This document shows, one piece after another, positions 4,096-37,824 of a stretch of DNA of 41,567 nucleotides. The position numbers and the translations under genes were made by a program. The notes under the pieces were generated by a model. The model made no database searches and was not told the DNA's origin. It saw only the letters and a program-made list of their open reading frames with translations. Numbering within the stretch: the stretch's first letter is position 1; every line of letters starts with the position of its first letter. Source of the stretch: Methanobacteriota archaeon (GTDB taxonomy: Archaea; Thermoplasmatota; Poseidoniia; Poseidoniales; Poseidoniaceae); contig NZFU01000021.1 in the NCBI GenBank assembly GCA_002689345.1, positions 1-41,567 of the forward strand. The letters are read 5' to 3'.

Positions 4096-7000
4096 TTGTG
4101 TATGAACAATACTCCATTTGCCTTAAGTGCCTTTGGTGGAACCGTTACTCCGGTGTTAGCCCTGCGTATGTCCTCCATCCAATCGTCAGCGCGTCCTAAA
4201 CTCCTTAGAGAGTTAGATGAAAAGAAGTTCAAGTCCATTGGTCTAGCCATGCTTATGCTTCTGTCTACAATAGCCTCTATTGAATTCGTTTCATTCACTG
4301 CTTTAGCTGCTACAGACCAAGATGGAGACGGTCTGACATATGGGCTTGAGTACCTCATTAACACACAACCAAATGATTGGGATTCCGATAATGACCAATT
4401 GCCAGATGGCTGGGAATGGCAATACGGTTTAGACCCACTTTCTGCAAGTAATTCTGATGGTGCAATTGGGGATCCTGACGGCGATGGATTCTCAAATTTG
4501 CAAGAATATAATTACCTTCAACCGTCAAATTGGGACCTTTCTTCGACCACATCTGTGTTGGATAACGGAGTTTGGTGGAATGGAACAGTTCCTGTCAATA
4601 ATTGGGATGAAGAAAACGCAATGCAATACAATCAGTTAGCATGTGGAGCATCCGGTGCAGATGGTACCGGTAGCATCATCCTTTGTGATGAAGATCCTGT
4701 TGGAAACATCTGTACTGATGGATTTGACAATGACAAAGATGGTATGGTCGATTCCAATGACAACGACTTCGATGGTGATGCCGATTGTGCAACCAATGAT
4801 GACGATGGAGATGGCGTATTTGATGAAGACCCAATGGGATGGGATACCGATGGTGATGGAATGCCAGATGGTTGGGAAGCTTCCAATGGATTGAATGCCA
4901 CCTCACCTTCTAATGCTGATGGAGCAAATGGTGACCCTGATGGTGACGGACTAATCAATATCTACGAATATGTCAATCCATCTTGGACAACAACATGTGG
5001 AGGCCAGCCTTGTTACAGACCAGGCCCTACTGGTTCCTTTACTGAAACCACAACCCCTTGTTCACCTCATTTGGGAATTGGACCTGGCGGCTGTGCAACT
5101 ATGACAGCAGAAACAGATGGTGTAACTTCTACCAATCCTCTTGATTCAGATACGGACAATGATGGATTAAATGATTCACATGAAGCTCTGACATTACTAA
5201 CCGATCCTACTAATGTCGATACAGACGCTGATGGAATCAACGATGGTATCGAAATCAATGGACAATACGGTTTCCCTGCACAGGCTAGCGATCCTAGAAA
5301 CAACAATACTGATGGCGATGCTTTTGATGATGGTGATGAAGATAAAAACGGAAATGGCGTAATCGACTCCAATGAAACCGACCCTACTCGCCGTGAAGAT
5401 TCTGGGGACTTTGACAATGATGGCCTTGAAAATTGGCAAGAGAATCTATCATGCACATTATGGAATGTCGCAGATACAGACTTTGGAGGAATCAATGATG
5501 GTGATGAATCGAATGCCTCACATGGAACTGACCCATGTGATTCACTCCTAGTATTCACCTCCACTATCGGTCCAAGTGCCTACAATTCAGGTTCTAGTCA
5601 ACTAACTGTGGCCGATGGTTCAGGCTTCAGTCCATCTGGAGGGATTGCCTACTACAATAATTCTGGAACTTATACTCAATTTTCTTATGCTGGTGAGGTG
5701 AATAGTGTATTGCAAGGAGTATTTGTTTCTCCACCAAGCGGTGCATCCTCAGTAGATGCACGAAATAACTCTTGGTGTCATGACATCTCAGGGGGCTCAT
5801 TCCCATCATACTGTGATGATGATTACTCAGATTCTGATGGAGATGGATTAGCAGATTGGGAAGAGACTTTGGGTGTTTATGGTTACTTCTCTAATCCTAC
5901 ACTTGCAGACTCAGATAATGACGGAGTAAATGATTTTGATGAAATTTTAGTCGATACAGATCCAATGCAGCCTTGTGATAACACACTGGATGATGACGGA
6001 GATGGATTGAATAATTACTTCGAAATTACTACTGGATGTGACAATTCTTGGATTGGAATAACCAATGGTAGTCAAGATATCTGGACTACAGATGAAAATA
6101 ACGAAGACACCGATTCAGGTGGAGTAAACGATAAGCAAGAATACTTTGATTCAACAAATCCTGAAAACGATCCTACCGATGATATATTCCCTGATGATTT
6201 TGATGGAGACAAAATCCCGGATGCTGTTGAAAATCAAACAGGTACCGATTGGCGCAATCCAGATACCGATGGTGGAGGGATGCTAGACGGAGATGAATGT
6301 CCTCAACAATTCTGGTTTACAAATTGTCAAGGGTCGCCATTTAACCCATGGGACCCTTCAGATGATGTTATGCAGAATGATGTCATCTTCTGGGCTAACA
6401 ATACTAGCGGCGTCGTCGATTTGAATCGTGTCCATCTATGGCGTGTTCATACATATGATTTCTACACAGGTGCCGCTTACGGACTAGAGACCGATGTTCA
6501 TTCTGCTAGTGAAGTTAGTATTCCTTATACTAACAATACCCACTTAGCATCATCGAACTACGCAAATGATACAGTTGCTTGGAATCTTGCATTTGCAAAT
6601 CCAATGATGTCAGGAAAAGTACCAATGCCTGCCTATCAATTCAATATCACTTTCTGGTCAGATGCTTCTTTGGCAATGACAAGAACAAATGATACTCATT
6701 CCTACGAAATCTCAGCAGGACTGTTGGATGCAGTTTGGGTTGAAGAGTATGAATACTGGTTTGATTGGGCCACACTCTCAGCTAACACAATTGCTGGAAC
6801 GAACTCATCTTATGAAACAATAGTTCCTGATTTCTTCACCAATTCATCACTACCTGAATCTCTAGTGTTGAATGTGACAAATGATGTGATTAGCAATGCG
6901 GGAGCTACTGATGCTTATTCTAAGGCAGATGCAATTGCAACATTCCTTCGTGATGGAAATTCAACATTCGATTTCAAGCGAAACTACAATGGAAGCGGTT

Positions 7001-10000
7001 CTGCACCTGAAGCAGACCTCACTTTCGAAGTTCTTAATCGTGCAAAAGAAGGAACTTGTTCTGAATTCACTACTGTTTTCGTAACTATGGCTAGACTTGC
7101 AGGTTTGCCTGCAAGGTTCGTTACTGGATACAAAGGCGGTACTTGGACTGGAAATGGATACGCCGTATATGGCGGAAATCTTGCACAATGGGGCGAAGTT
7201 CGTCTTGAAATGAGCCCTGGAAGCGGGGGAGATGATCTTGGATGGATACCTTTCGATGCTTGTCCTGACCCAGAGGAAATCGAGGTTGTAAATCTAACCT
7301 GGTCTCCAACTACCTACGACCGTGAAGGATTGGTTGATGTCAATGTTACTGGAACTTTACAATTCGTAGATAATACAACAGCGATTCCTGATATCACATT
7401 ACGTGGCTATGTCGTAAGTGTTGATGATATAGGTAATGTCCCAGGTTCTGCAGCATCAATCGATAACCTATTTGGAACAATTACCACTGATGCTAACGGC
7501 AATTTCGCAATGAACGGTACAATGGAGTCTCCAGCAGCGCCTGGGTTTGCTAGCATTGTTCTAGAGCATATACAAAGTGGATATGTTTCACATGATGGAT
7601 TAGATATGGGCGTTTTCATCAATATGACTGATGATTCTGTAATCAATCATAGTGAGCCAGGACCTATTGACCAACCGGTGTTAGGAGCTGGAGCAACTAC
7701 TGTTTTATCTGGACAGTTATTGTTTGAAAATAACAAAACAAGCGGCTCTCAAGATTTAGGTAATCTCGAGGTATGGCTGGAATTCATATCTTCAGAAGAT
7801 GGAACTACCAATCTTTCAGGTATGGTCGGTCCAGGTGGCGTTTGGGAAATCAATGTCACACTCGATGAATTAGAAACTAAGACAAATGTTTCTGCAACTC
7901 TCGGATTTAGTGGATGGCAGGATACATCGCAATCAGTTGGTGGGCCACAATTCCACCTAAGGCCGTCTACGCATTCTATTACACTCGATATCAGAGATGC
8001 ACCAAACTTGACAGCAGTTATTGAAGGGCCAGGAGCAAATGACTCAATTTTACAAATCGATGAATTAGTTTACATCAACGGTTCAGCAATGTCCTTTGGT
8101 GCGTCACCAGCGGCACTTTCAGGAAATCTTTCATTCGGAATGAGAGAATTGAATGGCGGTGGTACTTTCGTTGAATTATTCAATCAGTCTGTAAATGGAG
8201 CATTTACAATTACGCACATTCTAGATATGAATAATACTACTGTTAAGGCTGGAGAAATCGAATTAGAATTGGTATTCTACCCCGATAATCTAGAGGCTAC
8301 GGATTCACTGAATACATCCGGAACACCTTGGTGGTTACAGGGACTGTTATTCTTTGAATTGCAAGCCAATCCTCAGTTGAGAGGTAATGATGTTGGAATT
8401 ATTGTACAGGTTACCGATCACTTGGGTGGTCAATTCGATCTAAATCTTTCAGGAACCTTCACGTTCGATTTTGATGGCACTAATGTAAATACTACTTCTG
8501 ACCCAGATTCTAGCACAATTTCACCAACATTTACAACAAATGCAAATTTGTTTGCTGGTGATTATGTCTTTGATATGGCATTTGGTGGAAATGAGTACTT
8601 CTTGTCTTCTAGTAATAGTTCATCATTGCGAATTATGGGTACTGTCGACATTACAGTTACTGTGATTGATGATTGGACATATTTGGGCAACACTACTTGG
8701 CTAGTGGGCGACTTTACTGATGCAGTTCATGGAACCGCAATATTGGGTAATGATTCGATAATTATGGCTCAACTTCTCACTCCAAGTGGAATTGTTGATT
8801 TGGCAAATGGTATGTTGAATAATACTACAGGAACTTACAACATCACAATAACGGCACCAAACAACTTCCCTTCATCAGTTTATGATATCGAAGTCATCAC
8901 CGATTTCGATTCACCTTCACAGATTGGTGGAGCTTACTTCCAATGGGTCGACAATGCAGTTCCACCGGCATTGCCTCAAATACCTTCTACACCTTGGGGT
9001 ATCGAGTCTGAAGTCACTCTCGCACCACCTCCTAATGCCGATGTTATTGCTGTGATGAATACTTCAGTTGACATTACGGTAAGAGTTGGAGATGTTGCAG
9101 ATAATTCCAATGTAAGTGGAGCACAAGTCAACTATATTTTGGATTATGGTGGAGCTAATATTTCTCTAGGAAATGCAATTAGCGCAGCGGATGGAAATGC
9201 AACATTGACTTGGTTAGTTTCCAGTATTGATCCTGGACAATATGTCTTGAGGATGGAAGTATTAGATGACGTTTCTTCGCCGAAGATTGCTGGTGCAACA
9301 AGACACTATGGTAACTTTACAGACATCAATGTGACAGTGCAAGTACCTTCCAATATACGAGTGGATACAATACCTTCAACAGTTACTGCAGGTGTGAACT
9401 TCCAAGTTATAGGGCAGATTGAGGATGGAGACAACTCCAGTCGAAATCTAACCAGTGCTGTAGCATTAGAGATGTTCTGGTTAGATAACCCTGATGAGAA
9501 ATTGGTCAATGGCGTCTATACTACTATGAATGGTAGTTTCAACTTTTCAGTCCCTACTGACGTTCTTAACAATGGAACTCTAAGAGGGCCAAGGTCGTTC
9601 ATTATCTCAGTTGTAGATGGTTCATCTCCATTCTACTTGACCGATTCAAGTAATCATTCGATATTGGTTCAAGGAGTCACCTTGTTCGAAAATGTACAAC
9701 CTCTAAATCCAATAGTTAGAAATCGAGGAGAGGATGTCAATATCACTCTACAAATGGTTGAATCATCTAATATGTGGCAACCGTTAGGTGGGTACACAAT
9801 AGATGTATTATTCGATGATACTTGGTTGCCATCAAATACTACAGATTCACAAGGAAGAACGAATTTCACCTATTCAATTCCTTTCGATCAGCCTTTGGGA
9901 TTGATTACTATCTCTCTATACTACAATGGTAGTTTTGATTTACTTCCAACTCAGAGGAACTTGTCGACAGTAACTATTCGCTCGATTACTATAATGGTTG

Positions 10001-13000
10001 TAGACCCAATTATCGCCAATCCAGTAGCAGGTGAATCATTTGCGATTACCGGCTCTATTGAAAGTGACAATGGTAGTGCTCTACAATTGAGGAATGGAGA
10101 TCCTTTGACTGCAAATGTACTGTTTACAATCGATGGATTAGCAACAGGATTTACCTTATCTAATGGCCAAATACAAGCAGATGGAAATTGGACAGCCAGT
10201 ATCATGCTATCTTCAGGTTTCAGTGCTGGTACTCATATTGCTGAGGCTCAATATATTCCTTCAGTGAATTATTATTCAGGTTCAAGTGCAAATCAATCCT
10301 TTGATAGCCGTGGATTTACTACTCTTTCTTTCATTGCTCCTTCCTTAGATGGCGTGAATTTACCTTCGCTAAATGATAGAACAGACAGAGGGGATGACGT
10401 TAATGCTAGACTACAGTTATTCGATAATACAGGTGCAGCAGTTGTTGGCGTCCAAGTCACAGTATCGCTAAATGGTACAGCTGTCACCACTATTGGTACA
10501 ACCGATTCAATGGGAACTATAGATGTTAATTTGACAGTTCCAACAACAATAGATGTTGGCTTCCATGACTTGAGTGCCGAATTCTTAGGCACTCCTGGAA
10601 CTACTGGATTAATTGGAGATACTGATGATGTTACATTCGTAGTACTAGCCCAGACCGTTGTTAATATCACCGAGAGTTCACCTGCGATTACCGCTGGAGA
10701 AATTCTGTATGTCAATGGTACTCTACTAGATGACTTAGGTAATTCATTGCAAATAGATGGTAATGATTCGATTGCAGTTGTATATCTGTTAATCGATGGA
10801 GTTCCAGTATCTAGCGTGCAGTCCAATGCAGGAGATGGCATGTTCATGTTTGCATGGAACTCTCCTGAAAGTATTGGCGCAGGACCTCATAACATCCAGG
10901 TTAAATTTACTGGTGGTAGAGATTGGGTTGACCCAATCGGTGAAGGAGATAGTGCTAATCCAGACTTCTATCATCCAAGTACTGATTCTGTTAATTTCAC
11001 AGTTGCAGTTCCTACAAAGATTCTACTAATCACTCCTGGTGGTCAAGTTGACCGTGAAGATGTACTGACTGTTCAAGGACGATTATTGGATTTGGTCGAT
11101 AACCCATTGGAAGGCGAAACAATTGAAATCTGGCTTGGTGGAAACTTCCTGACTAATGTTACCACTACCAATGATGGTACATTCACCGCGGTTCATCCAG
11201 TTCCTGCTGATGCCGAATTAGGTCCTGTTGTTCTTGAGACAAGATATAATGGATCGATACAATACTTGCCTTCAACAAATGATGGCACATGGAATATCTA
11301 TTCTAAGATCTTAGTGCAGGTAAATATCGAATCACCATTAGCAGTTGAGCAGTTGACTACTATCGATGGATTTGTTGGAGATAATCAAATGAATCCACTT
11401 TCAAATATGATTGTCTTAGTAAGCATTGAAGGCATTTCAATAGGTAATGCTACAACCGATTCAAATGGTAATTTCAGTTTCAATTGGCAAGTACCTAACA
11501 TCTTCTCTGATGGGAACCACACAGTTGAGGCAGATGTCCCGGCGCAAGGATGGTACCGCTCAGGTCAAGGAAATACAACTTTCTTCCTAGCACACCGCAC
11601 AGGAATGACAGTGAGTATTGTTGACAATGATGTAACAAGAGATGACTTCTGGGAGATCTCTGGTACTCTATATGATGTAGATAGTGCAACTAATGAAGGC
11701 CTAGGTAATGAGATAATTACTATCTCTATTGGAGGAGTAGAAGTTGCTACAACAACCACTACACCGAATGGTGCTTTCACGACCACTATTCGTGCGGAAT
11801 CTTCCTATGACCGTGGTAATCATATCATGACTTTCGCATTCGCTGGAAGTACTGGACATTTACCTGTAGATTCTAACAAAACTGTTACCGTTTGGGCCGA
11901 TGTAATCGTGTACATCGATTCTGCAAACACCTATGTGGTGCGAGGCGACAGTGTTGAGAACCGAATACAGATTACTGGTAGGGTTACTGAAATAGGTGGC
12001 CAGGGAGTATTAATCGACGGAGCAACTCTAATTCTTGGAGACGGAATAGATTGTGATTCAAGCGGAAATGATAACCGCTGTATCAATATCGAAAATGTGG
12101 TTTGGAATGGTGGAACTTACACTATCATAGCAACAGCACCTACCTGGATGGAGCCTGGTCAAATGCAATTGAATGTACAGGCGCCACAAAACTCCTCACT
12201 TTACCTAAGAACTGGTAACCAATGGACGCCAGATATCGCTATTAGAATTAATCTAAAGACACCTATCAATGTTGATATTGAACCAATTATTGAGGACGAA
12301 CAAGAAGTGATAATGGGTGATCTCGAATTAATTGCTGAAGATAGTGATGAAGGTGTAGAAGGTATTGCAATAACAATTTACCTTGAACATGCTAACGGTA
12401 CACGATTAGATGAAGTGGTAATAGCTACAGATTCAGAAGGAAAGGCATCCTTCGAGTTCAATGCTGAACCACCATACGGAGATGCATCCAATTGGGGAGA
12501 ATTAACTCTCAAGATGTCACTCGCACCTAATTTCATCATATCTGATGATTCGATGACCGAATTTAACACGCAGTATAACTCAGGTGTCCAACCTGATTAT
12601 ACCTATGAGGATGAAGGAAATTCGATATTTAATTCATTCTGGTTCTATGTGTTCCTCATGGGATTCCTCGGGGGAGTGACTGCATTTGTAGTCTTGAGAA
12701 AGAGAGCGGAGGATGCTGCTAAGGAACTTGCAGACATATTCTCCTACACTGCCGAGTTATTGGCTGCAGGAGATTCGATGAGAGAGGCTATTTTCGAGTG
12801 CTACGAAAGTTTGGTTCACATCCTAATGGGACGTGGTTTCCTACGCCGTGATTTCGAAACTGTAAGAGAATTCGAGATGGCGATTAGGGCTGCATTACCA
12901 AATCTGTCTGAAGAATCTCTATCCGCTCTTGATTCTATATTCGAAGAGGCAAGGTACAGCCGTCACGAGATGGGTCAAGTTCACAAGGCCAACGCACAAG

Positions 13001-13059
13001 AGGCATTGACTCGAGTAGCTAACGAGATTGGACAGGTTGGAGAAATTCCAAACCGATGA
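4096..13059 (+). CDS. Giant (about 2987 aa) secreted protein: TSP3-type Ca-binding repeats, transglutaminase-like domain, tandem Ig-like/carboxypeptidase-regulatory-like domains, TM, C-terminal DUF4129-like domain
   Basis: Many DxDxDGxxD repeats (approx. 4315-6360); Tgl-like block RAKEGTCSEFTTVFVTMARLAGLPARFVTGYKGG (7030-7140); repeated 90-110 aa beta-sandwich units; TM FWFYVFLMGFLGGVTAFVVL near 12640-12700; tail with DUF4129-like MREAIFECYESLVHIL..RDFETVREFE. True start may be ATG 4168. Confidence 0.9.
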   Translation: MCMNNTPFALSAFGGTVTPVLALRMSSIQSSARPKLLRELDEKKFKSIGLAMLMLLSTIASIEFVSFTALAATDQDGDGLTYGLEYLINTQPNDWDSDNDQLPDGWEWQYGLDPLSASNSDGAIGDPDGDGFSNLQEYNYLQPSNWDLSSTTSVLDNGVWWNGTVPVNNWDEENAMQYNQLACGASGADGTGSIILCDEDPVGNICTDGFDNDKDGMVDSNDNDFDGDADCATNDDDGDGVFDEDPMGWDTDGDGMPDGWEASNGLNATSPSNADGANGDPDGDGLINIYEYVNPSWTTTCGGQPCYRPGPTGSFTETTTPCSPHLGIGPGGCATMTAETDGVTSTNPLDSDTDNDGLNDSHEALTLLTDPTNVDTDADGINDGIEINGQYGFPAQASDPRNNNTDGDAFDDGDEDKNGNGVIDSNETDPTRREDSGDFDNDGLENWQENLSCTLWNVADTDFGGINDGDESNASHGTDPCDSLLVFTSTIGPSAYNSGSSQLTVADGSGFSPSGGIAYYNNSGTYTQFSYAGEVNSVLQGVFVSPPSGASSVDARNNSWCHDISGGSFPSYCDDDYSDSDGDGLADWEETLGVYGYFSNPTLADSDNDGVNDFDEILVDTDPMQPCDNTLDDDGDGLNNYFEITTGCDNSWIGITNGSQDIWTTDENNEDTDSGGVNDKQEYFDSTNPENDPTDDIFPDDFDGDKIPDAVENQTGTDWRNPDTDGGGMLDGDECPQQFWFTNCQGSPFNPWDPSDDVMQNDVIFWANNTSGVVDLNRVHLWRVHTYDFYTGAAYGLETDVHSASEVSIPYTNNTHLASSNYANDTVAWNLAFANPMMSGKVPMPAYQFNITFWSDASLAMTRTNDTHSYEISAGLLDAVWVEEYEYWFDWATLSANTIAGTNSSYETIVPDFFTNSSLPESLVLNVTNDVISNAGATDAYSKADAIATFLRDGNSTFDFKRNYNGSGSAPEADLTFEVLNRAKEGTCSEFTTVFVTMARLAGLPARFVTGYKGGTWTGNGYAVYGGNLAQWGEVRLEMSPGSGGDDLGWIPFDACPDPEEIEVVNLTWSPTTYDREGLVDVNVTGTLQFVDNTTAIPDITLRGYVVSVDDIGNVPGSAASIDNLFGTITTDANGNFAMNGTMESPAAPGFASIVLEHIQSGYVSHDGLDMGVFINMTDDSVINHSEPGPIDQPVLGAGATTVLSGQLLFENNKTSGSQDLGNLEVWLEFISSEDGTTNLSGMVGPGGVWEINVTLDELETKTNVSATLGFSGWQDTSQSVGGPQFHLRPSTHSITLDIRDAPNLTAVIEGPGANDSILQIDELVYINGSAMSFGASPAALSGNLSFGMRELNGGGTFVELFNQSVNGAFTITHILDMNNTTVKAGEIELELVFYPDNLEATDSLNTSGTPWWLQGLLFFELQANPQLRGNDVGIIVQVTDHLGGQFDLNLSGTFTFDFDGTNVNTTSDPDSSTISPTFTTNANLFAGDYVFDMAFGGNEYFLSSSNSSSLRIMGTVDITVTVIDDWTYLGNTTWLVGDFTDAVHGTAILGNDSIIMAQLLTPSGIVDLANGMLNNTTGTYNITITAPNNFPSSVYDIEVITDFDSPSQIGGAYFQWVDNAVPPALPQIPSTPWGIESEVTLAPPPNADVIAVMNTSVDITVRVGDVADNSNVSGAQVNYILDYGGANISLGNAISAADGNATLTWLVSSIDPGQYVLRMEVLDDVSSPKIAGATRHYGNFTDINVTVQVPSNIRVDTIPSTVTAGVNFQVIGQIEDGDNSSRNLTSAVALEMFWLDNPDEKLVNGVYTTMNGSFNFSVPTDVLNNGTLRGPRSFIISVVDGSSPFYLTDSSNHSILVQGVTLFENVQPLNPIVRNRGEDVNITLQMVESSNMWQPLGGYTIDVLFDDTWLPSNTTDSQGRTNFTYSIPFDQPLGLITISLYYNGSFDLLPTQRNLSTVTIRSITIMVVDPIIANPVAGESFAITGSIESDNGSALQLRNGDPLTANVLFTIDGLATGFTLSNGQIQADGNWTASIMLSSGFSAGTHIAEAQYIPSVNYYSGSSANQSFDSRGFTTLSFIAPSLDGVNLPSLNDRTDRGDDVNARLQLFDNTGAAVVGVQVTVSLNGTAVTTIGTTDSMGTIDVNLTVPTTIDVGFHDLSAEFLGTPGTTGLIGDTDDVTFVVLAQTVVNITESSPAITAGEILYVNGTLLDDLGNSLQIDGNDSIAVVYLLIDGVPVSSVQSNAGDGMFMFAWNSPESIGAGPHNIQVKFTGGRDWVDPIGEGDSANPDFYHPSTDSVNFTVAVPTKILLITPGGQVDREDVLTVQGRLLDLVDNPLEGETIEIWLGGNFLTNVTTTNDGTFTAVHPVPADAELGPVVLETRYNGSIQYLPSTNDGTWNIYSKILVQVNIESPLAVEQLTTIDGFVGDNQMNPLSNMIVLVSIEGISIGNATTDSNGNFSFNWQVPNIFSDGNHTVEADVPAQGWYRSGQGNTTFFLAHRTGMTVSIVDNDVTRDDFWEISGTLYDVDSATNEGLGNEIITISIGGVEVATTTTTPNGAFTTTIRAESSYDRGNHIMTFAFAGSTGHLPVDSNKTVTVWADVIVYIDSANTYVVRGDSVENRIQITGRVTEIGGQGVLIDGATLILGDGIDCDSSGNDNRCINIENVVWNGGTYTIIATAPTWMEPGQMQLNVQAPQNSSLYLRTGNQWTPDIAIRINLKTPINVDIEPIIEDEQEVIMGDLELIAEDSDEGVEGIAITIYLEHANGTRLDEVVIATDSEGKASFEFNAEPPYGDASNWGELTLKMSLAPNFIISDDSMTEFNTQYNSGVQPDYTYEDEGNSIFNSFWFYVFLMGFLGGVTAFVVLRKRAEDAAKELADIFSYTAELLAAGDSMREAIFECYESLVHILMGRGFLRRDFETVREFEMAIRAALPNLSEESLSALDSIFEEARYSRHEMGQVHKANAQEALTRVANEIGQVGEIPNR

Positions 13060-28516: not shown

Positions 28517-29164
28517 ATGAAAAGAGTTGCAATTTATGCATTGACAATAGCAATAGGGCTATTCGTAAGTGCAGAATATGGTGAATGGCCGGTAAATATC
28601 TGGTGCATTTCACTTTTCATGGCCCTATACATCAGGGCGGAAAGGAAAGAAAGAATCGAGATGATTACAGTATTAGCATTTGCAACTCCAATGGAGTTGT
28701 TTTTCAGTGAAGTATGGTTAATTTACGAATATCAGCGTGACCTAATGCCATTGTTTGTACCAGTTGGACATTGGTTTTTATTCGATGCAGGGCGAAGAAT
28801 ATCACAGTATTTGCCTGTCAAAAAAGCGATGTATTCCCTGATTCCCTTCATACCATTAGTGATCTATGGTGTTTGGACAGGGGGAGATACCTCTGGCCTA
28901 ATCTTGTTATTATTGGTACTTGGATTTACCAAATGGGGCCCACAGCCCGCACTATACGCCACGATGGCATGGGTGGCATTGTTAATGGAATTGTGGGGCA
29001 CATATTTGGCAAACTGGACATGGGCAAATGAAGTGCCATGGACTGGATTAACCGCTTGGAATCCCCCATTATTAGTTGGGGCATTTTACTGTCTTGGAGA
29101 TTTATTGGTTAACCTATCAGTCGCGAGGTTTGAAGGTGAGCACCCCTTGGAGGAGTCTGAATGA
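28517..29164 (+). CDS. Polytopic membrane protein, unknown
   Basis: 215 aa, about 6-7 hydrophobic helices. No family recognised. Confidence 0.6.
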   Translation: MKRVAIYALTIAIGLFVSAEYGEWPVNIWCISLFMALYIRAERKERIEMITVLAFATPMELFFSEVWLIYEYQRDLMPLFVPVGHWFLFDAGRRISQYLPVKKAMYSLIPFIPLVIYGVWTGGDTSGLILLLLVLGFTKWGPQPALYATMAWVALLMELWGTYLANWTWANEVPWTGLTAWNPPLLVGAFYCLGDLLVNLSVARFEGEHPLEESE

Positions 29165-29493
29165 CATCCTCTGAGGATTTGGCAAAGCGTCGTGCAGCGG
29201 AGGCTGAACGAATTGCAATTTCTCTGGCTAGGCAGAAAGGAGAGCGTCGTTCTTCGATTAAAGGTGGAGAAGGAACCGTTGCTTGGGTAACCGAGAAATT
29301 GTGTATTGGTTGTGACCAATGTACAATCGTGTGCGATGATGATGCCATTGAATTATATTTCAAAGATATGCAATCCCCTCTTTTAGAGGTTCCAAGTAAC
29401 AGAAAAGCGAAAATCATTCGCGATGCATGTACTGGTTGTAGATTATGTGTGCTAGCATGCCCTACTGATGCGATTACAATGATAGATAGGTGA
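29161..29493 (+). CDS. Dicluster 4Fe-4S ferredoxin-like protein
   Basis: CIGCDQCTIVCDDDAI and CTGCRLCVLACPTDAI; ATGA overlap with upstream gene. Confidence 0.88.
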   Translation: MTSSEDLAKRRAAEAERIAISLARQKGERRSSIKGGEGTVAWVTEKLCIGCDQCTIVCDDDAIELYFKDMQSPLLEVPSNRKAKIIRDACTGCRLCVLACPTDAITMIDR

Positions 29494-29774
29494 TTTATTT
29501 GTCCAAACAACCAGAACACGAAGGAGCACAGAGATTTGGTGGAGAGTTTGGCCCAGCACGTGGCCCTAATACAACAGGAGTTTCTCTTTCGACATTCAAG
29601 ATGCTGGTTTGGGTATCTAATATCGGAGGTCTTCTACTTGTTGTATTTGCCTTGGAATTTTTGTTTGTCGAGCAAAAATTCGGCCTGGGCTTAGGTTTCC
29701 TAATAGCTGGAGTTTTAGTTGCAATGTTCCCCTCTAATTATGAAATTAGAGGAATGGACGAAGATGAATCTTGA
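29490..29774 (+). CDS. Small 2-TM membrane protein
   Basis: 94-aa ORF with GTGA overlap to the ferredoxin gene and two hydrophobic helices. Confidence 0.6.
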   Translation: MIYLSKQPEHEGAQRFGGEFGPARGPNTTGVSLSTFKMLVWVSNIGGLLLVVFALEFLFVEQKFGLGLGFLIAGVLVAMFPSNYEIRGMDEDES

Positions 29775-30608: not shown

Positions 30609-33422
30609 TTATGCTTCAGCAGGAACATGCACGGTTGCAGTTTCTTCAGCCATCGATTTCTTCGCCTCTACTTGACGAGCAAGGAAAGAGACAACATCTA
30701 GAATCTCGATGTCATATTTCTCTTCATCTTCGAATTTGAGACATTCAAAGTGTGAAACACATTTTGGACAAGATGTAATCATCATATCTGCTCCCGTATT
30801 TTTTATTTCTTCCATACGAGAAACTCTCAAGGAACGAGCGTTTTCATTACATGACATCATGCTTGAAACTCCACAGCACATTGCATCTTCACCGTGATGC
30901 TCCATCTCAACAAGTTCAACACCTTCAACGCCTGCTACCAGTTCACGTGGCTCATCATAGATGCCCATTTGTCGACCAAGTCTACATGGGTCATGATAAG
31001 TTACTGTCAACTCATCTTCAGCCTTCATCTTCATGTCAAATCCATTCTCGATTAGGTATTCAGTGGTATGCATTACCTTGACCCCTTCTAACTCATAGTC
31101 ACGTGCAAATGTACGGAAACATTCAGCACATGAAGAGACTAGAGTATCGATTCCAGAAGCTTCAATCTTCTTTTGGTTGTATGATTTTAGTTTGTCGAAA
31201 ACTTCGTCAAGTCCCTGCCACTTTTGATCGTGGCCACAACACTTCAAGAAATCACGGCCAAGGTATGAAACCTCAGTGCCCATTTCCTCGAATAATGTAA
31301 ATGCAGCGTTTGTGGTGTCTCCTAAGTTCATGTCACCTTCATTGAGGTGGCTGAATACCATTTCTTGGTCTAGGTAGTCGACGCATCCAGGATAGTATCC
31401 AACATTGGAATCGATTGGATAGTCCTTTACCGATACGAAGTCTTTGTCGCTGTCTTCTTCCGCTTCTGCAGCAAGAACTGCTTGTAATACTGTGTGTGGT
31501 ATTTCTGCGGCAGGTCCCCCTACAATTAGAGAGCGGCGAATATCTACGTATGAATCGTAATCCACAAGTTGAGGGCATGCATTGGTACATGCGGTACAGG
31601 TTAGACAGGAATACATCGGAACTCCATCATCTTCATTATTCCAAGAGTTGTAAATGATGTTCAACTTGTCTCCAGCATTGAATAATCTAACAGGGCAAGC
31701 ATCATCACAAAGGTCACATCCGTAACATTTGTTCATTTCGAATTCGTATCCTCTTGCCATATTTCTTAGTATTACGAATACAATCGCTCCTGCGGTTAGA
31801 CATGGAATGAACATTGCATAGGTTAGTTTAGCATCCAGAGACTTTGGATTTGAATGGTATGTTGGGTTTACAATAACTCCCATGTTCTCACCTTCTAATT
31901 CCATATCTAAGGAATTAGAGATGTCGACAACGTGTCCTGCTAATCCATTACCAGCATCATCATCGTACAATAGAAGTGGCTGGAATGCCTTAATTGTCAA
32001 GGTTGTTTCAACGGTTACACTTTCGTTGGTCCTTAGACCATCAGTGGATTCAACTGTGAATACATAATCATAGATTCCAGCTTCCAGTTCAATACCTGTT
32101 TCACCAGTATTACAATCGGTTTCAATAACAGTTTTATCGGTATCATGTTCTGAGATTACAAGGCTTGATACAATCATACTAGATGTTGAATCTCCTCCGT
32201 CAATAATAACCTCACTCGCTCTAGTAGCGCAAGTAGCATCGACTGGAACTGTTTTGAAATCTACATCATCAGGCCAATACTGGTCTGTGATGATGAATGA
32301 ACCAGTTGCATAGATCGAATCATCGGCTGAATAGTTGCTAATTCTCATAGCACCATTTGTTCCCACTGCGGCATCTAGGTCTTGTTGATGACCGTTTTCA
32401 TCTGAGAAATCTATCAGATAATATCTCGCGGGTTGGTATATGTTCCAATCCATCCAAGCAGCTGCAGGAACAATCTCGCCATCGAATCCTTGAGCATCCA
32501 TGAATTCATTACGCTCATGAACATGAATATCAGTTGGCTGAGAGCGCATGTCCTCTAACTCATCATAATCTGCAATCGTTAGAAGTCCTTTAGCATCCCA
32601 GAATCCATTGTCATAAACAGGGTATGATACCACACTAGCAGCGGTTGCAACAATGAATGCTCCAACAATTAATTTCTTTCCATGTGCGGGAGTAAATCTT
32701 GCACCCCATGCATTATTGAAAAGCCACTTAGCAATGAAGTAGATTACAATCCATAACAGAATACCCGTCATTATCCACGGTATCATATTGAATAAATCAG
32801 CAATCCAAGGGTCCCTCGTACCACAAATCAAATCTCCATGGCTATCGAGTTTACAGTAATCGCTCCTATTCTTCCCATACAATTCGAGGAAGATATTGAT
32901 TGAGAATACCGAGATGAACCAAATGTGAGCCAGGTAAACAGCACCAGCACTTGCAAACCAAGGGTCTTCAACTGGGCGCTTTTCACGTCCGCCTAGGAAT
33001 GGAGGCAATGCAAGGATTCCGACAGGGATTCCAGTCAGGAATGCACCCCACCATGCAGCGTTCCATGGGAAGGAAGGCTGTCCGAAGAAATCGCCGACCG
33101 GACCTAATGGTACGTCGAACTGAGGAAGATATTCTCCCCATCTTAGGTATCCATAAGAGAACAATACATACCAGTCAGGGAATACGAAACCTGCTTGTGC
33201 GAAAGGATCTGCTGCACTGTGCAATGGTGGTGGAATTAGCCATGCATAGAATAGTAATACACATCCCATAAACGCGAAGATTAGGGTGTCACGAAGGACT
33301 TCATGTGGCCAGAAACCATGTCCTGTACGAGTCCGCATCCTTCTTTCATCAGCAGTTTCTAGTTTCTCTTTTTCATCCATGTAGGACGAAGCAACTGCGC
33401 CAAGATTCTCTATTAATCCCAT
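30609..33422 (-). CDS. Fusion: cytochrome b C-terminal half (subunit IV-like) + extracytoplasmic insert + dicluster ferredoxin + two CCG domains (HdrD/GlpC-like)
   Basis: FPDWYVLFSYGYLR (PEWY-like Qo motif), CYGCDLCDDACPVRLF and CLTCTACTNACPQLV ferredoxin motifs, then PGCVDYL..KCCGHD..CAEC and DPCRLGR..MCCGVS..CPKC. Confidence 0.88.
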   Translation of the reverse strand: MGLIENLGAVASSYMDEKEKLETADERRMRTRTGHGFWPHEVLRDTLIFAFMGCVLLFYAWLIPPPLHSAADPFAQAGFVFPDWYVLFSYGYLRWGEYLPQFDVPLGPVGDFFGQPSFPWNAAWWGAFLTGIPVGILALPPFLGGREKRPVEDPWFASAGAVYLAHIWFISVFSINIFLELYGKNRSDYCKLDSHGDLICGTRDPWIADLFNMIPWIMTGILLWIVIYFIAKWLFNNAWGARFTPAHGKKLIVGAFIVATAASVVSYPVYDNGFWDAKGLLTIADYDELEDMRSQPTDIHVHERNEFMDAQGFDGEIVPAAAWMDWNIYQPARYYLIDFSDENGHQQDLDAAVGTNGAMRISNYSADDSIYATGSFIITDQYWPDDVDFKTVPVDATCATRASEVIIDGGDSTSSMIVSSLVISEHDTDKTVIETDCNTGETGIELEAGIYDYVFTVESTDGLRTNESVTVETTLTIKAFQPLLLYDDDAGNGLAGHVVDISNSLDMELEGENMGVIVNPTYHSNPKSLDAKLTYAMFIPCLTAGAIVFVILRNMARGYEFEMNKCYGCDLCDDACPVRLFNAGDKLNIIYNSWNNEDDGVPMYSCLTCTACTNACPQLVDYDSYVDIRRSLIVGGPAAEIPHTVLQAVLAAEAEEDSDKDFVSVKDYPIDSNVGYYPGCVDYLDQEMVFSHLNEGDMNLGDTTNAAFTLFEEMGTEVSYLGRDFLKCCGHDQKWQGLDEVFDKLKSYNQKKIEASGIDTLVSSCAECFRTFARDYELEGVKVMHTTEYLIENGFDMKMKAEDELTVTYHDPCRLGRQMGIYDEPRELVAGVEGVELVEMEHHGEDAMCCGVSSMMSCNENARSLRVSRMEEIKNTGADMMITSCPKCVSHFECLKFEDEEKYDIEILDVVSFLARQVEAKKSMAEETATVHVPAEA

Positions 33423-33439: not shown

Positions 33440-34306
33440 TCAGTGCGGCTCCGCAATTCCTTGAACCCATACAATGAACAAATGTATTATGATCAATGTA
33501 GTTACAATAACCGGCAAAATAAACACGTGAATGAAATACATACGTGTTACTGTGCGATGAGATAGTGATGATCCTCCGAATAATAATGTAGCAATATATT
33601 TCCCAATAAGAGGAGTTGAATTTGCGAGATTGATTCCAATTACAGCAGCTCCATATGCTAGGCTATCCCAAGGTAGTAGGTATCCTGAATATCCAAAGAC
33701 AATAGTCAATGCCATGAGTGCAACTCCAATCAACCAATTCAGTTCACGAGGGTTTCTGTAAGCGCCTGTGAAGTATACTCTACACATGTGGAGGAATACT
33801 GATGCTACCATGAAGTGTGTACCCCAATGGTGTACTGCGCGGATAATATAGCCGAACGGCAACTGTGTCATGATGAATTGCATACTTGCGTATGCAGGAG
33901 ATGGGTCTCCTTCTCCGCCAGGGACATAGTAGATTCCAAGAACAGTTCCTGTGATAACTAGGATGATGAATGATAGGAATGAAATTCCTCCTAAGCAGTA
34001 TAACGGGTACCAATACCAAATGATTCTCAACTTATACTTCTCAGCGTGTGTTAGTGGCATCTGCCTGTGCATGTTGTAGTATGCACCTTTGCTCATGTTC
34101 CAATAATCCTGTATTCTGAAACGAGTATCTAGGAACGAGAATACCCAGAGGAACGTTCTCTCAGCGAATCCCATCTTGCCGCTAGTTTCTACAGCGCGTA
34201 GAATCTCACGGCGAGGGATGTCCTCGTTTTCCTTACGAAGTGTAAATGCAATCAAGACAATGATGAATGCAATAAAGAACCAAAGTACCCAGAATATTGT
34301 GCTCAT
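33440..34306 (-). CDS. Cytochrome b N-terminal half (b6-like)
   Basis: VHHWGTHFMVASVFLHMCRVYFTGAYRNPRELNWLIGVALMALTIVFGYSGYLLPWD, second His pair in SHRTVTRMYFIHVFILPVIVTTLIIIHLFIVW. Confidence 0.95.
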   Translation of the reverse strand: MSTIFWVLWFFIAFIIVLIAFTLRKENEDIPRREILRAVETSGKMGFAERTFLWVFSFLDTRFRIQDYWNMSKGAYYNMHRQMPLTHAEKYKLRIIWYWYPLYCLGGISFLSFIILVITGTVLGIYYVPGGEGDPSPAYASMQFIMTQLPFGYIIRAVHHWGTHFMVASVFLHMCRVYFTGAYRNPRELNWLIGVALMALTIVFGYSGYLLPWDSLAYGAAVIGINLANSTPLIGKYIATLLFGGSSLSHRTVTRMYFIHVFILPVIVTTLIIIHLFIVWVQGIAEPH

Positions 34307-34315
34307 ATCTTCACC

Positions 34316-35164
34316 TCAGTCGCAATAGGTCAGCCAGCCCGTGTAATCTGTAGACGCCTCAATGGTGTCTCCATTCATAATGATAGGAATAATTGGTAAT
34401 CCTACAGGCGCAGGTCCACCTGCACGTCGAATTCCTAAGTATTCGAAAGATGCTCCAGTTGAACGGTTAGCATTTCTGTTGACTTCAATAGCGGTGGGGT
34501 CGAATCGGCTTGAGTGGCATATGCAGAACATTTTACTTCCACCATCATCTCCTCCACCAGGAGTCCAGTTGTCATCTGTGAATGAGTTTGAGACCAGTTG
34601 CCATCCAGGGATACAACAAAGATGTGTGCATCTTGAGAAACTCATTACTAGATTGTTATTTGGATCGAAAATATCTGGGTTACCTAGTAGGTATTCTGTG
34701 GCGTGGCCGACATAATTTCCTCCAATGTCATAGCCTGCCATTTCTTGGAAACGTGGTGAATTGTCTGCAATCGGTGTTACCGCATTAGTTGCGTGAGGCA
34801 CATAGTTGACAATTACAGGAAGGCCATTCCACACACCCTGTGCTCCAGACATACCTACATTTGAGTTAGCGGCTTCAGTTTCAAAGTCCGATTTCATCAT
34901 TGGTTGGAGGTGTTTTGCCCCATACCATGCTTCATCTTCACGACCCTTGGCCCAATACAGAACCGAAGCATCTCCTCCGCCTCCACCTGATGGTGGAAGT
35001 AAAATTGATGCGAAACCAAGTGCTCCAAGTGTTGCTGCTAATACTCCACCTACTGCATTGAATCCATGGCGCATAAATTGGCGGCGGTTAACCGACATGG
35101 CCCCATCTTCAATCAATGAGGTCCCATCGATAGCTGGTGCTGGTCTTAATTTCATATCATCCAT
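34316..35164 (-). CDS. Rieske 2Fe-2S protein with Tat-like N-terminus
   Basis: CTHLCCIPGW...MFCICHSSRFDPT; NRRQFMRHGFNAVGGVLAATLGALGFA. ATG 35164 (after GGTGATCT) fits better than the track start 35236, which overlaps the upstream gene. Confidence 0.9.
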   Translation of the reverse strand: MDDMKLRPAPAIDGTSLIEDGAMSVNRRQFMRHGFNAVGGVLAATLGALGFASILLPPSGGGGGDASVLYWAKGREDEAWYGAKHLQPMMKSDFETEAANSNVGMSGAQGVWNGLPVIVNYVPHATNAVTPIADNSPRFQEMAGYDIGGNYVGHATEYLLGNPDIFDPNNNLVMSFSRCTHLCCIPGWQLVSNSFTDDNWTPGGGDDGGSKMFCICHSSRFDPTAIEVNRNANRSTGASFEYLGIRRAGGPAPVGLPIIPIIMNGDTIEASTDYTGWLTYCD

Positions 35165-35168
35165 AAGA

Positions 35169-35624
35169 TCACCAATTGTATTCTCTCCAGTCCTTCTGAT
35201 GTTCAGGGACATACTTGTTTTGGCTATGCTTGACAATGATGGTATTTGGTAGAACCCACTTCATGTAAACTATGCCCATCATAATTAGAGTGCTAGTTCC
35301 CATTGCCAAGTGGTAGGATAATAGTTGTTGGTCCCAAGCCGAGCCATTTAGTAGACCGTATAGCATGGTTCCGAACCAGTACAAGCTCCAGAATATTCCC
35401 CATCCAAAGAAGAATATAGTCAGTGCTGAACTTCCAGATGGGGCTAATGATGCTGAAACAACGGTTCCTGATTCTGCAAGATTGAACACGCCGTGGTTAA
35501 TGGCAGCATCCATTTGCTCTTCGGTCAAGGCAGCATCTTCAAGAGCGGTTCTAGCATCTTTGACGCTGACCTTGCCCGAGGCAACCTTTTCCAATAATTG
35601 GGTAATGGTATCTTTTGCCATCAC
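35169..35624 (-). CDS. Two-TM accessory subunit of the bc-type complex, unknown
   Basis: 151-aa ORF between the Rieske and the Reeler-like gene; soluble N-terminus then two hydrophobic helices. Confidence 0.65.
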   Translation of the reverse strand: MMAKDTITQLLEKVASGKVSVKDARTALEDAALTEEQMDAAINHGVFNLAESGTVVSASLAPSGSSALTIFFFGWGIFWSLYWFGTMLYGLLNGSAWDQQLLSYHLAMGTSTLIMMGIVYMKWVLPNTIIVKHSQNKYVPEHQKDWREYNW

Positions 35625-36532
35625 TGGTCACCTCTTCTGTTAACCTTGTACCTTAGTCGTAATAGGTTTGAACGTCCTTTGTAGGAGGTTGAGAATCCAT
35701 ATCTTAGTAGTAGTCCACAAAATACGATCACAGCGATAACTGCTCCGAATCCAAGCAGTCCAAGCCAGTGTGCTCTGAATTGAGCACCCATGGTGTGTAG
35801 GTCGATTTCGCCAGAACTACCTTCAGGTGCTTCAGGGGTTCCGCTTCCTGCGATTAAGGTACGTGTTCCTCTTCCATCATCTTCTTCAACTTCGATTAAG
35901 TTGAAAACAAGTTGATTCCAATTATCCCCTGCAGGACCGTCGGCTCCATTTACTGCATTAGCACTAATCCAGAAATCAACATGGCCAACTCCTGCTTCAG
36001 GAGCAATCCAAGTTAGTTCAAAGATTCTAGTTGCAGATGAAGAATGTGAACGTGTAGCAGAGTCTTCTTCCCATGCGTCTCCATCGCCAGATAATTCTCC
36101 AGCACTAACTCTGGCTGAGAATCCACCAAGAGCAGTGTCTGGGCCACCTATGATTTCCAAACGCATATTGTACTCTTCACCAGTGGTCCAAGTGTGGGGT
36201 ACATCGACAAGGATTACCATGACCGAATTACTAGGGTCTCCTCCATGACAAAGGCACCCTTCTTTGGCTACATCATCAATCGTCTGGTCTCCATTAATTT
36301 GTTCTCCACCAATTCCGTTTGGGTAAGCATTGCTTAGCCCCGGAAGCAGCATCAAAGATACAAGGATTAGGGGTAGCAGACTTCGGATGAAAACCCGTGA
36401 TGTGCGCATAGCGTATCCCAACCGATTTATGCGACTTGGATTGCGCCTATAATCGTTCCTTGCCCTATCTTCGATAGGGGGTAGTGCAGTGTTACTTTTT
36501 GCTCTTGTTTTTGCCCAAACATACAATGGCAA
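35621..36532 (-). CDS. Reeler-like / choice-of-anchor V type secreted membrane-anchored protein with CxCH motif
   Basis: Signal-like SLLPLILVSLMLLPGLSNA, EGCLCHGGDPSNS, beta-sandwich GGFSARVSAGELSGDGDAW..., C-terminal TM. Confidence 0.7.
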   Translation of the reverse strand: MPLYVWAKTRAKSNTALPPIEDRARNDYRRNPSRINRLGYAMRTSRVFIRSLLPLILVSLMLLPGLSNAYPNGIGGEQINGDQTIDDVAKEGCLCHGGDPSNSVMVILVDVPHTWTTGEEYNMRLEIIGGPDTALGGFSARVSAGELSGDGDAWEEDSATRSHSSSATRIFELTWIAPEAGVGHVDFWISANAVNGADGPAGDNWNQLVFNLIEVEEDDGRGTRTLIAGSGTPEAPEGSSGEIDLHTMGAQFRAHWLGLLGFGAVIAVIVFCGLLLRYGFSTSYKGRSNLLRLRYKVNRRGDQ

Positions 36533-36894: not shown

Positions 36895-37824
36895 ATGGAT
36901 GGCGCCCAGATATTGATTGCTGGCGTCGGCGGGCTAGGTGGCTCTTGGGCTCAGCGTGCTCATTCTAGAACCGGTCATGGAATAGATTTGGTTTTGATCG
37001 ATGCAGATGAGTCTACATTCAACACTCCGGATGCACATGTCATTCGTTTGGGTAAGGATTTAGATTCAGCCGGATGTGCTGCTCTTCCACCTTTGGGGGA
37101 GCAAAGAATGCGCCAGGCTGCGAGTGTTTCTAGAACATTACTCGATGGAGTTGAAATGGTTATTCTTTTGACTGGACTAGGTGGTGGTACTGGGACTGGT
37201 GCCGCACCTGAATTTGCCAGGCAGGCTCGACTATCAGGAGCAATTGTAATCTCTATTGCAGCAATTCCTTTCGAGGCCCAAGAAACCAGATTAAAAGTCA
37301 GCAGAGAAGGTCTATCAAAATTAGAAGCCAATTCGGATGTATGCGTCCGGCTAGATTTGGATAGGTTGGCTTGGCAAGCTAGAGAGAGAGGTACTGATTG
37401 GAGATTAGGAGCGTCTTGGGTTGAAGAATTTGTAGATGGTCTTGTAAGGACATTGATGAGATTAGGTTTAATCAATCTAGATATGATGGATTTGAAAACT
37501 ATAGTTGGACATTCCGGAGGCTCAACGTTGATGGTTGGACAAGGCGATCCTGATGACGCAAATGGATTGCTCCAAGACGCATTAAGTGCACCTTTAGCCG
37601 ACCTTTCTCTCGATGGTGCAAAGGCTTGTTTATTGCAGATTGAAGGTGGCCCAGGTATGACTGTGGGCCAAGTTGGATTAATCGCCGATGCATTTACTGC
37701 ACGATTTGATGAAGATGCTCAAGTAATACTTGGAGCAAGAGTTAGTGATGATTTGCGCGGTAAGATTAGAGTTGTTGCTGTTGTAGCAGGACTGGAAGAG
37801 AAATCTAATCTAAGCCTCGTCTGA
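36895..37824 (+). CDS. FtsZ/tubulin superfamily GTPase, divergent
   Basis: GVGGLGGSWAQRA, tubulin signature LLTGLGGGTGTGAAPEFAR, T7-like NLDMMDLKTIV. Confidence 0.85.
   Translation: MDGAQILIAGVGGLGGSWAQRAHSRTGHGIDLVLIDADESTFNTPDAHVIRLGKDLDSAGCAALPPLGEQRMRQAASVSRTLLDGVEMVILLTGLGGGTGTGAAPEFARQARLSGAIVISIAAIPFEAQETRLKVSREGLSKLEANSDVCVRLDLDRLAWQARERGTDWRLGASWVEEFVDGLVRTLMRLGLINLDMMDLKTIVGHSGGSTLMVGQGDPDDANGLLQDALSAPLADLSLDGAKACLLQIEGGPGMTVGQVGLIADAFTARFDEDAQVILGARVSDDLRGKIRVVAVVAGLEEKSNLSLV

Follow-up and report, generated by a model that had tools for sequence, protein, structure and literature searches.

A Rieske-cytochrome b complex of Poseidoniales with an HdrC-HdrB-like iron-sulfur arm fused to subunit IV, a candidate electron inlet

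Introduction

Beside complex III, Angelarchaeales-1 has genes resembling hdrD and rnfB, and Diamond et al. 2022 (PMC9038741) suggested that complex III may serve as a further entry for reduced ferredoxin in Ca. Angelarchaeales; the concept of ferredoxin entry at complex III is hence already known and is not new. For MGII, Tully 2019 (PMC6336850) described a specific complex III consisting of cytochrome b and Rieske proteins without a canonical bc1 complex, noted RnfB, and reported RnfACDEG to be absent. In the b6f complex, haem c_n has been suggested as the conduit from ferredoxin in cyclic flow (PMC9342900). EtfD is reported to pass electrons from ETF in the cytoplasm on to haem and menaquinone in the membrane; catalysis by HdrB relies on noncubane clusters, and the first CCG domain of EtfD has lost one Hdr cysteine (PMC13083937).

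Here, we analyzed a stretch of 41,567 nucleotides from a member of the Poseidoniaceae (contig NZFU01000021.1, termed the window herein), and compared it with other genomes, mostly metagenome-assembled, in a survey covering the Thermoplasmatota. Poseidoniales are among the most abundant archaea of the surface ocean and have no cultured isolates, so that their respiration is inferred from genomes alone. A preliminary description of the window had pointed to a gene that joins a cytochrome b segment to iron-sulfur domains.

Results

One open frame joins subunit IV, a ferredoxin domain, and two CCG domains

The frame (Table 1) is open over 937 codons without an internal stop and joins a cytochrome b half, a ferredoxin, and a CCG pair in a single chain, as had been described. 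A profile built from six sequences matched bc1 cytochrome b C-halves (7.6e-9), HdrC (1.5e-7), and HdrB (2.5e-7) in this order along the chain; its best overall and PDB match was EtfD, with which the ferredoxin/CCG part is homologous (7e-37). Pfam recognized two CCG stretches (4e-25) and Fer4_8/Fer4_9 (about 8e-7). The window's fusion gave no match to PF00032, its cytochrome part being too divergent, and the homologues from G177 and G169 passed that model (39.3 and 22.5 bits, respectively, at a cut-off of 20.7 bits); of the two profile checks first suggested, the CCG one thus succeeded on the window sequence itself and the PF00032 one on relatives. The cytochrome b C-half match and the PDWY motif, unchanged across 47 aligned homologues, bear out the subunit IV-like assignment. 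Matches to the curated NCBIfam HdrB/HdrC families stayed far under the cut-off; the nearest CCG families of the arm are GlpC, GlcF, LutA, EtfD, and TfrB.

Table 1 Features of the fusion gene, its operon, and the neighboring ferredoxin genes in the window
Feature	Position	Strand	Basis
2x[4Fe-4S] ferredoxin (fd110), resembles the RnfB ferredoxin region	29161..29493	+	Pfam, neighborhood
Small membrane protein (tm94) paired with the ferredoxin	29490..29774	+	Neighborhood
Fusion: subunit IV half, two extra TM helices, extracytoplasmic insert, TM helix, HdrC-like 2x[4Fe-4S], HdrB-like CCG pair	30609..33422	-	937 aa
CCG domain 2, five cysteines (HDPC..CCG..CPKC)	30747..31004	-	Pfam, cysteine alignment
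CCG domain 1, five cysteines (YPGC..CCG..CAEC)	31113..31403	-	Pfam, cysteine alignment
HdrC-like 2x[4Fe-4S] ferredoxin domain, cytoplasmic by helix count	31557..31742	-	Pfam, profile, cysteines
Extracytoplasmic beta-sandwich insert, ~260 aa, fast evolving	31839..32621	-	Model pLDDT 82; dN
Two extra TM helices, present in Poseidoniales, missing in other lineages	32628..32807	-	Alignment, model
Subunit IV-like cytochrome b segment, three TM helices	32868..33317	-	Profile match to bc1 cytochrome b C-halves and b6f subunit IV; alignment
PDWY motif, quinol-oxidation (Qo) loop	33168..33179	-	Sequence; homologue alignment
Cytochrome b6-like subunit	33440..34306	-	PF00033 4.8e-43
Tat-type Rieske protein (CTHLCC ... 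CICHSS)	34316..35236	-	Motifs CxHxxC and CxCHxS
151-aa conserved membrane protein of the operon	35169..35624	-	Neighborhood conservation
Choice-of-anchor V membrane-anchored protein, CxCH motif, first operon gene	35621..36532	-	Family match, neighborhood

All eight cysteines of the two reported CxxCxxCxxxCP clusters were found (C566/569/572/576 and C606/609/612/616), and both CCG modules are complete, with five cysteines each (C680/728/729/765/768 and C813/849/850/885/888). These 18 cluster cysteines (8 ferredoxin plus 10 CCG) are essentially invariant among homologues, the one named break being an ambiguous residue at C888 in L045.

The N terminus of b6f subunit IV lies in the cytoplasm. In Poseidoniales, helices E, F, and G are followed by two extra helices and a last one, giving an even number, and in the other lineages by one more helix, giving the same sidedness; an even helix number from a cytoplasmic start would put the beta-sandwich insert on the extracytoplasmic face and the ferredoxin and CCG domains on the cytoplasmic one. 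The extracytoplasmic insert of about 250 aa in the preliminary description is therefore retained on the outer side by this count, and is now divided into two TM helices and the beta-sandwich. The insert has no family match. Foldseek related its model to the GOLD domain, other beta-sandwich domains, and viral jelly rolls, with scores too low for a family name, and a Prenyltransf Pfam match, which was under the cut-off, was judged spurious. The full-length AlphaFold model (pLDDT 54) was not used for geometry; its CCG part matches EtfD, LutA, and HdrB structurally.

The fusion is the last gene of a Rieske-cytochrome b operon

The operon runs from the choice-of-anchor V gene through the genes for the 151-aa membrane protein, the Tat-type Rieske protein, and the b6-type cytochrome to the fusion, all on one strand. 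The gaps are 9 nt (Rieske to cytochrome b6) and 17 nt (cytochrome b6 to fusion), consistent with the reported position of the fusion directly after these two genes. In cytochrome b6, His159/173/260/275 all align with the haem ligands of b6, and Cys104 occupies the aligned position of the cysteine that binds haem c_n in b6f (b6 YCLGG). The Rieske protein, whose gene probably has its ATG start near 35164, matched TIGR01416 with 4.7e-9, under the cut-off of that model. No cytochrome c match, whether c1 or f, was obtained among the operon proteins. As c1/f is also missing from many genuine archaeal Rieske/cytb complexes, this bears on the subtype only. The CxCH motif of the choice-of-anchor V protein is conserved as GCLCHG and GCYCHA, and in G177 this protein is fused, together with Ig-like domains, to cytochrome b6; it might belong to the extracytoplasmic acceptor side.

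In most Poseidoniaceae, the ferredoxin and its small membrane protein stay near the fusion gene, with the ferredoxin gene on the opposite strand; in a genome of family f2, both lie downstream of the fusion and share its strand. The ferredoxin did not reach the cut-off of the RnfB family (48.7 versus 68.7 bits). The tm215-ferredoxin-tm94 block (28517-29774) is on the strand of the fusion in some Poseidoniaceae (L010, L049, and L050), and this variation suggests local inversions. No flavoprotein gene is present in the Poseidoniales operon. A gene at 36895-37824 for a divergent FtsZ/tubulin-family protein (309 aa) adjoins the operon, as it does at the f2 locus and at most loci of Poseidoniaceae. 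Elsewhere in the window (4096-13059), a protein of 2,987 aa has a transglutaminase core with Ig-like/MG2 segments and is probably exported.

The fusion is conserved throughout Poseidoniales

The survey for the fusion envisaged at the outset, carried out across Poseidoniales and other Thermoplasmatota, located it in both Poseidoniales families and in 21 genera, with related forms in the sister family f3 and a second Thermoplasmatota class. All 146 Poseidoniales genomes searched gave a match; those of G039, G054, and G101 were weak and of paralogue strength, and that of G015 was a contig-end piece only, these genomes being incomplete or fragmented. An assembly join or frameshift at the fusion was rejected, as the frame is open in >100 independent genomes, including G002, which is a single contig. 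Between the window and its relatives, dN was about 0.02 to 0.09 in the cytochrome, ferredoxin, and CCG parts at dS >1; each of these parts is thus under strong purifying selection. The insert evolves several times faster by dN. Profile matches and purifying selection together exclude a chance motif. The proposed physical joining of a bc-type complex to an Hdr(C+B)-like module is accordingly conserved and does not reflect an assembly join.

Split, fused, and unfused forms in other Thermoplasmatota

Sister family f3 has the same operon with the frame split in two: one protein of 342 aa comprises subunit IV and the ferredoxin, and another of 295 aa the two CCG domains. At locus L114, genes for a polyferredoxin and a membrane protein come next. 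In the second class, the G169 fusion (789 aa) precedes a polyferredoxin, and that of G177/G182 (about 606 aa) precedes a gene for an HdrA/FlpD-like protein. The insert is missing from all of these forms. In Poseidoniia and the second class, the full or partial fusion always lies immediately 3' of cytochrome b6; among the matches listed from 390 genomes of the phylum, there was no additional fused case.

Nine other Thermoplasmatota genomes, from seven families, have an unfused operon in which a plain subunit IV follows cytochrome b6 without an Hdr module; eight of them also have the Rieske and 151-aa-type genes, and the remaining one is cut by a contig end. These nine operons indicate, at the level of sequence, that the Hdr-like arm was appended to a pre-existing bc complex. 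In a small, unrooted cytochrome b6 tree, drawn with a midpoint root, eight unfused forms (100/99) stood apart from G199 and from all arm-bearing forms but the G177/G182 pair, which joined at the base, on the unfused side of the root. The simplest reading would be that the arm was gained once, and that it was subsequently divided in f3 and enlarged in Poseidoniales.

The five-plus-five CCG cysteines are complete in Poseidoniales and in the G169/G177 class. Both sampled f3 genera (L113 and L114) have lost one CCG1 cysteine, at different positions (KCSG versus CAEG), while keeping the arm, suggesting that the system as a whole does not conserve disulfide chemistry. The haem c_n cysteine was present in every sampled arm-bearing lineage except one sister genus (g23), and the position held S, T, or A in six of the seven unfused sequences readable there. 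G199 (L154), which forms a long branch in the tree of cytochrome b6, has an unfused bc operon and nevertheless the cysteine. The haem c_n cysteine thus tends to accompany the arm in these sequences, with exceptions both ways and a contribution of shared ancestry to be allowed for.

Sources of electrons encoded in the genomes

POR was present in all 10 genomes tested and ETF in 9 of them; ETF-QO did not exceed the cut-off in any genome tested. NuoF was found in none of eight Poseidoniia genomes, which argues against direct NADH entry by that route and contrasts with the "canonical NADH dehydrogenases" of PMC6336850. FlpD was likewise absent from eight of eight Poseidoniales genomes, and an HdrA/FlpD donor was rejected for this order.

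Apart from the fusion, there is another CCG protein, whose anchor is NarI-like; in f3 its gene adjoins the etf genes. In genome G000 (contig C10; L126:7834-9867), it is an EtfD-like NarI-like/ferredoxin/CCG protein of 677 aa with a four-cysteine CCG1, and its sister-family counterparts lie directly before the etf genes (L129 and L130). This protein is probably the partner of ETF, providing an ETF:quinone route in archaea without ETF-QO. Its existence disfavors ETF as a donor to the arm.

Discussion

The gene order, cofactor ligands, domain order, conservation, and derivation from an unfused operon are established here from sequence comparisons. On balance, we think that the operon probably encodes a b6f-like Rieske-cytochrome b complex whose subunit IV has gained an HdrC-HdrB-like cytoplasmic arm acting as an electron inlet. 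Entry of electrons, from ferredoxin or a flavoprotein, is most likely the function of the arm rather than disulfide reduction; we infer this direction from the neighboring ferredoxin, universal POR, the separate EtfD-like route for ETF, and the f3 cysteine loss.

Under this proposal, 2-oxoacid:ferredoxin oxidoreductases would supply reduced ferredoxin, and the conserved neighboring ferredoxin (in one other class, the HdrA/FlpD-like protein) would relay electrons to the Fe-S/CCG clusters of the arm and from there to haem c_n/haem bH at the cytoplasmic quinone site. The quinone reduced at this site would be re-oxidized at Qo, and the Rieske protein would pass electrons towards a terminal oxidase, so that ferredoxin oxidation could be coupled to proton translocation via the Q cycle. 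A ferredoxin or polyferredoxin gene adjoins the arm or lies downstream of it in Poseidoniales, the sister family, and G169, in favor of an inlet. The cytoplasmic side predicted for the arm, the haem c_n cysteine that tends to go with it, and its homology with EtfD point the same way. Several observations count against it: Poseidoniales retain all five-plus-five Hdr-type cysteines, which are catalytic in HdrB; the haem c_n cysteine is missing in g23, which has the arm, and present in G199, which does not; and the ferredoxin gene is on the opposite strand in most Poseidoniaceae. In addition, complex I without NuoF could be an alternative consumer of ferredoxin.

More tentatively, the cycle might be hard-wired, running from ferredoxin through the HdrC-HdrB arm, haem c_n/bH, quinone, Qo, and Rieske, so that ferredoxin would drive proton pumping with hardly any net draw on the quinone pool, or none. 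We regard this as possible but doubtful; if true, it would amount to a natural and permanent counterpart of the contested ferredoxin-b6f route in cyclic photosynthesis.

A different inlet is conceivable, in which a two-electron flavoprotein dehydrogenase (of the lactate, glycolate, glycerol-3-phosphate, ETF, or HdrA type) docks on the CCG domains and ferredoxin is accessory. GlpC, GlcF, LutA, EtfD, and TfrB being the nearest CCG families, the reception of ETF electrons by EtfD (PMC13083937), and the HdrA/FlpD-like gene directly 3' of the G177/G182 fusion are in line with such docking. Against it, the sister-family ETF genes adjoin a different CCG protein, FlpD is missing from the eight Poseidoniales genomes, and the operon has no flavoprotein gene, and we consider it unlikely.

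The preliminary description preferred an acceptor of the disulfide type. The arm would then be an outlet: electrons from quinol at Qo would be split between Rieske and the b haems and pass via CCG to a cytoplasmic disulfide or similar acceptor, as in HdrDE with methanophenazine. This would suit the full HdrB-type cysteine sets of Poseidoniales and the G169/G177 class and the presence of HdrB among the top structural matches. However, the membrane potential opposes electron flow to the negative side, and the fact that each sister-family genus has lost a CCG1 cysteine, not the same one in both, argues that disulfide chemistry is not a conserved requirement. CCG-type modules in EtfD, GlpC, and LutA are inlets to the quinone pool. 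Given the cysteine loss, the ferredoxin neighbor, and these inlet modules, we depart from that preference and hold an outlet to be improbable. A regulatory or assembly role (redox sensing or anchoring) without significant electron flux is very improbable, as the 18 cluster cysteines hardly vary among homologues and the ferredoxin and CCG parts have a very low dN.

For the electron inlet that we favor, the consequence would be that the respiratory chain drawn for Poseidoniales is altered, with complex III gaining its own cytoplasmic electron entry. Essentially every member of the order has a complex III with a built-in cytoplasmic Fe-S arm, through which carriers of the cytoplasm such as ferredoxin most likely deliver electrons directly. 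This bears on how aerobic archaea re-oxidize the ferredoxin from 2-oxoacid:ferredoxin oxidoreductases, which is not settled, and on the debate in photosynthesis about ferredoxin reduction of b6f-type complexes via haem c_n; a covalent version would render both questions testable.

In the literature searched, we found no description of the covalent fusion, its fixation in Poseidoniales, or its derivation from an unfused operon; what is on record is a related gene neighborhood and the idea of ferredoxin entry (PMC9038741). The Angelarchaeales locus, likewise of the bc type and from Thermoplasmatota, has HdrD-like and ferredoxin-type genes in its vicinity, but these are proximal genes in one genome, described without a subunit IV fusion, a survey of Poseidoniales, or derivation from an unfused operon. 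The MGII complex III of PMC6336850 comes from the same organisms, and the Fe-S/CCG fusion is not described there. With HdrBC and HdrDE, the arm shares the HdrC-HdrB order and the five-plus-five cysteine sets; in contrast to them, it is attached to a Rieske-type bc complex, has no HdrE-type anchor, and occurs in Poseidoniales without FlpD. EtfD (Rv0338c of mycobacteria) has the same plan, in which a membrane anchor precedes a 2x[4Fe-4S] domain and a CCG pair. Its anchor, however, is a NarI-like five-helix haem b protein rather than cytochrome b subunit IV, and there are four cysteines in its CCG1, as in the sister family, whereas the Poseidoniales fusion has five; no ETF genes adjoin the fusion, and fusion-bearing genomes have a separate EtfD-like paralogue. 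The b6f and other Rieske-cytb complexes share the split cytochrome b (b6 plus subunit IV), the four haem histidines, the haem c_n cysteine, the Rieske protein, and PDWY. The operon described here differs from them in having no cytochrome c1/f gene and in a subunit IV that bears an HdrC-HdrB arm, to which Poseidoniales add two helices and a beta-sandwich.
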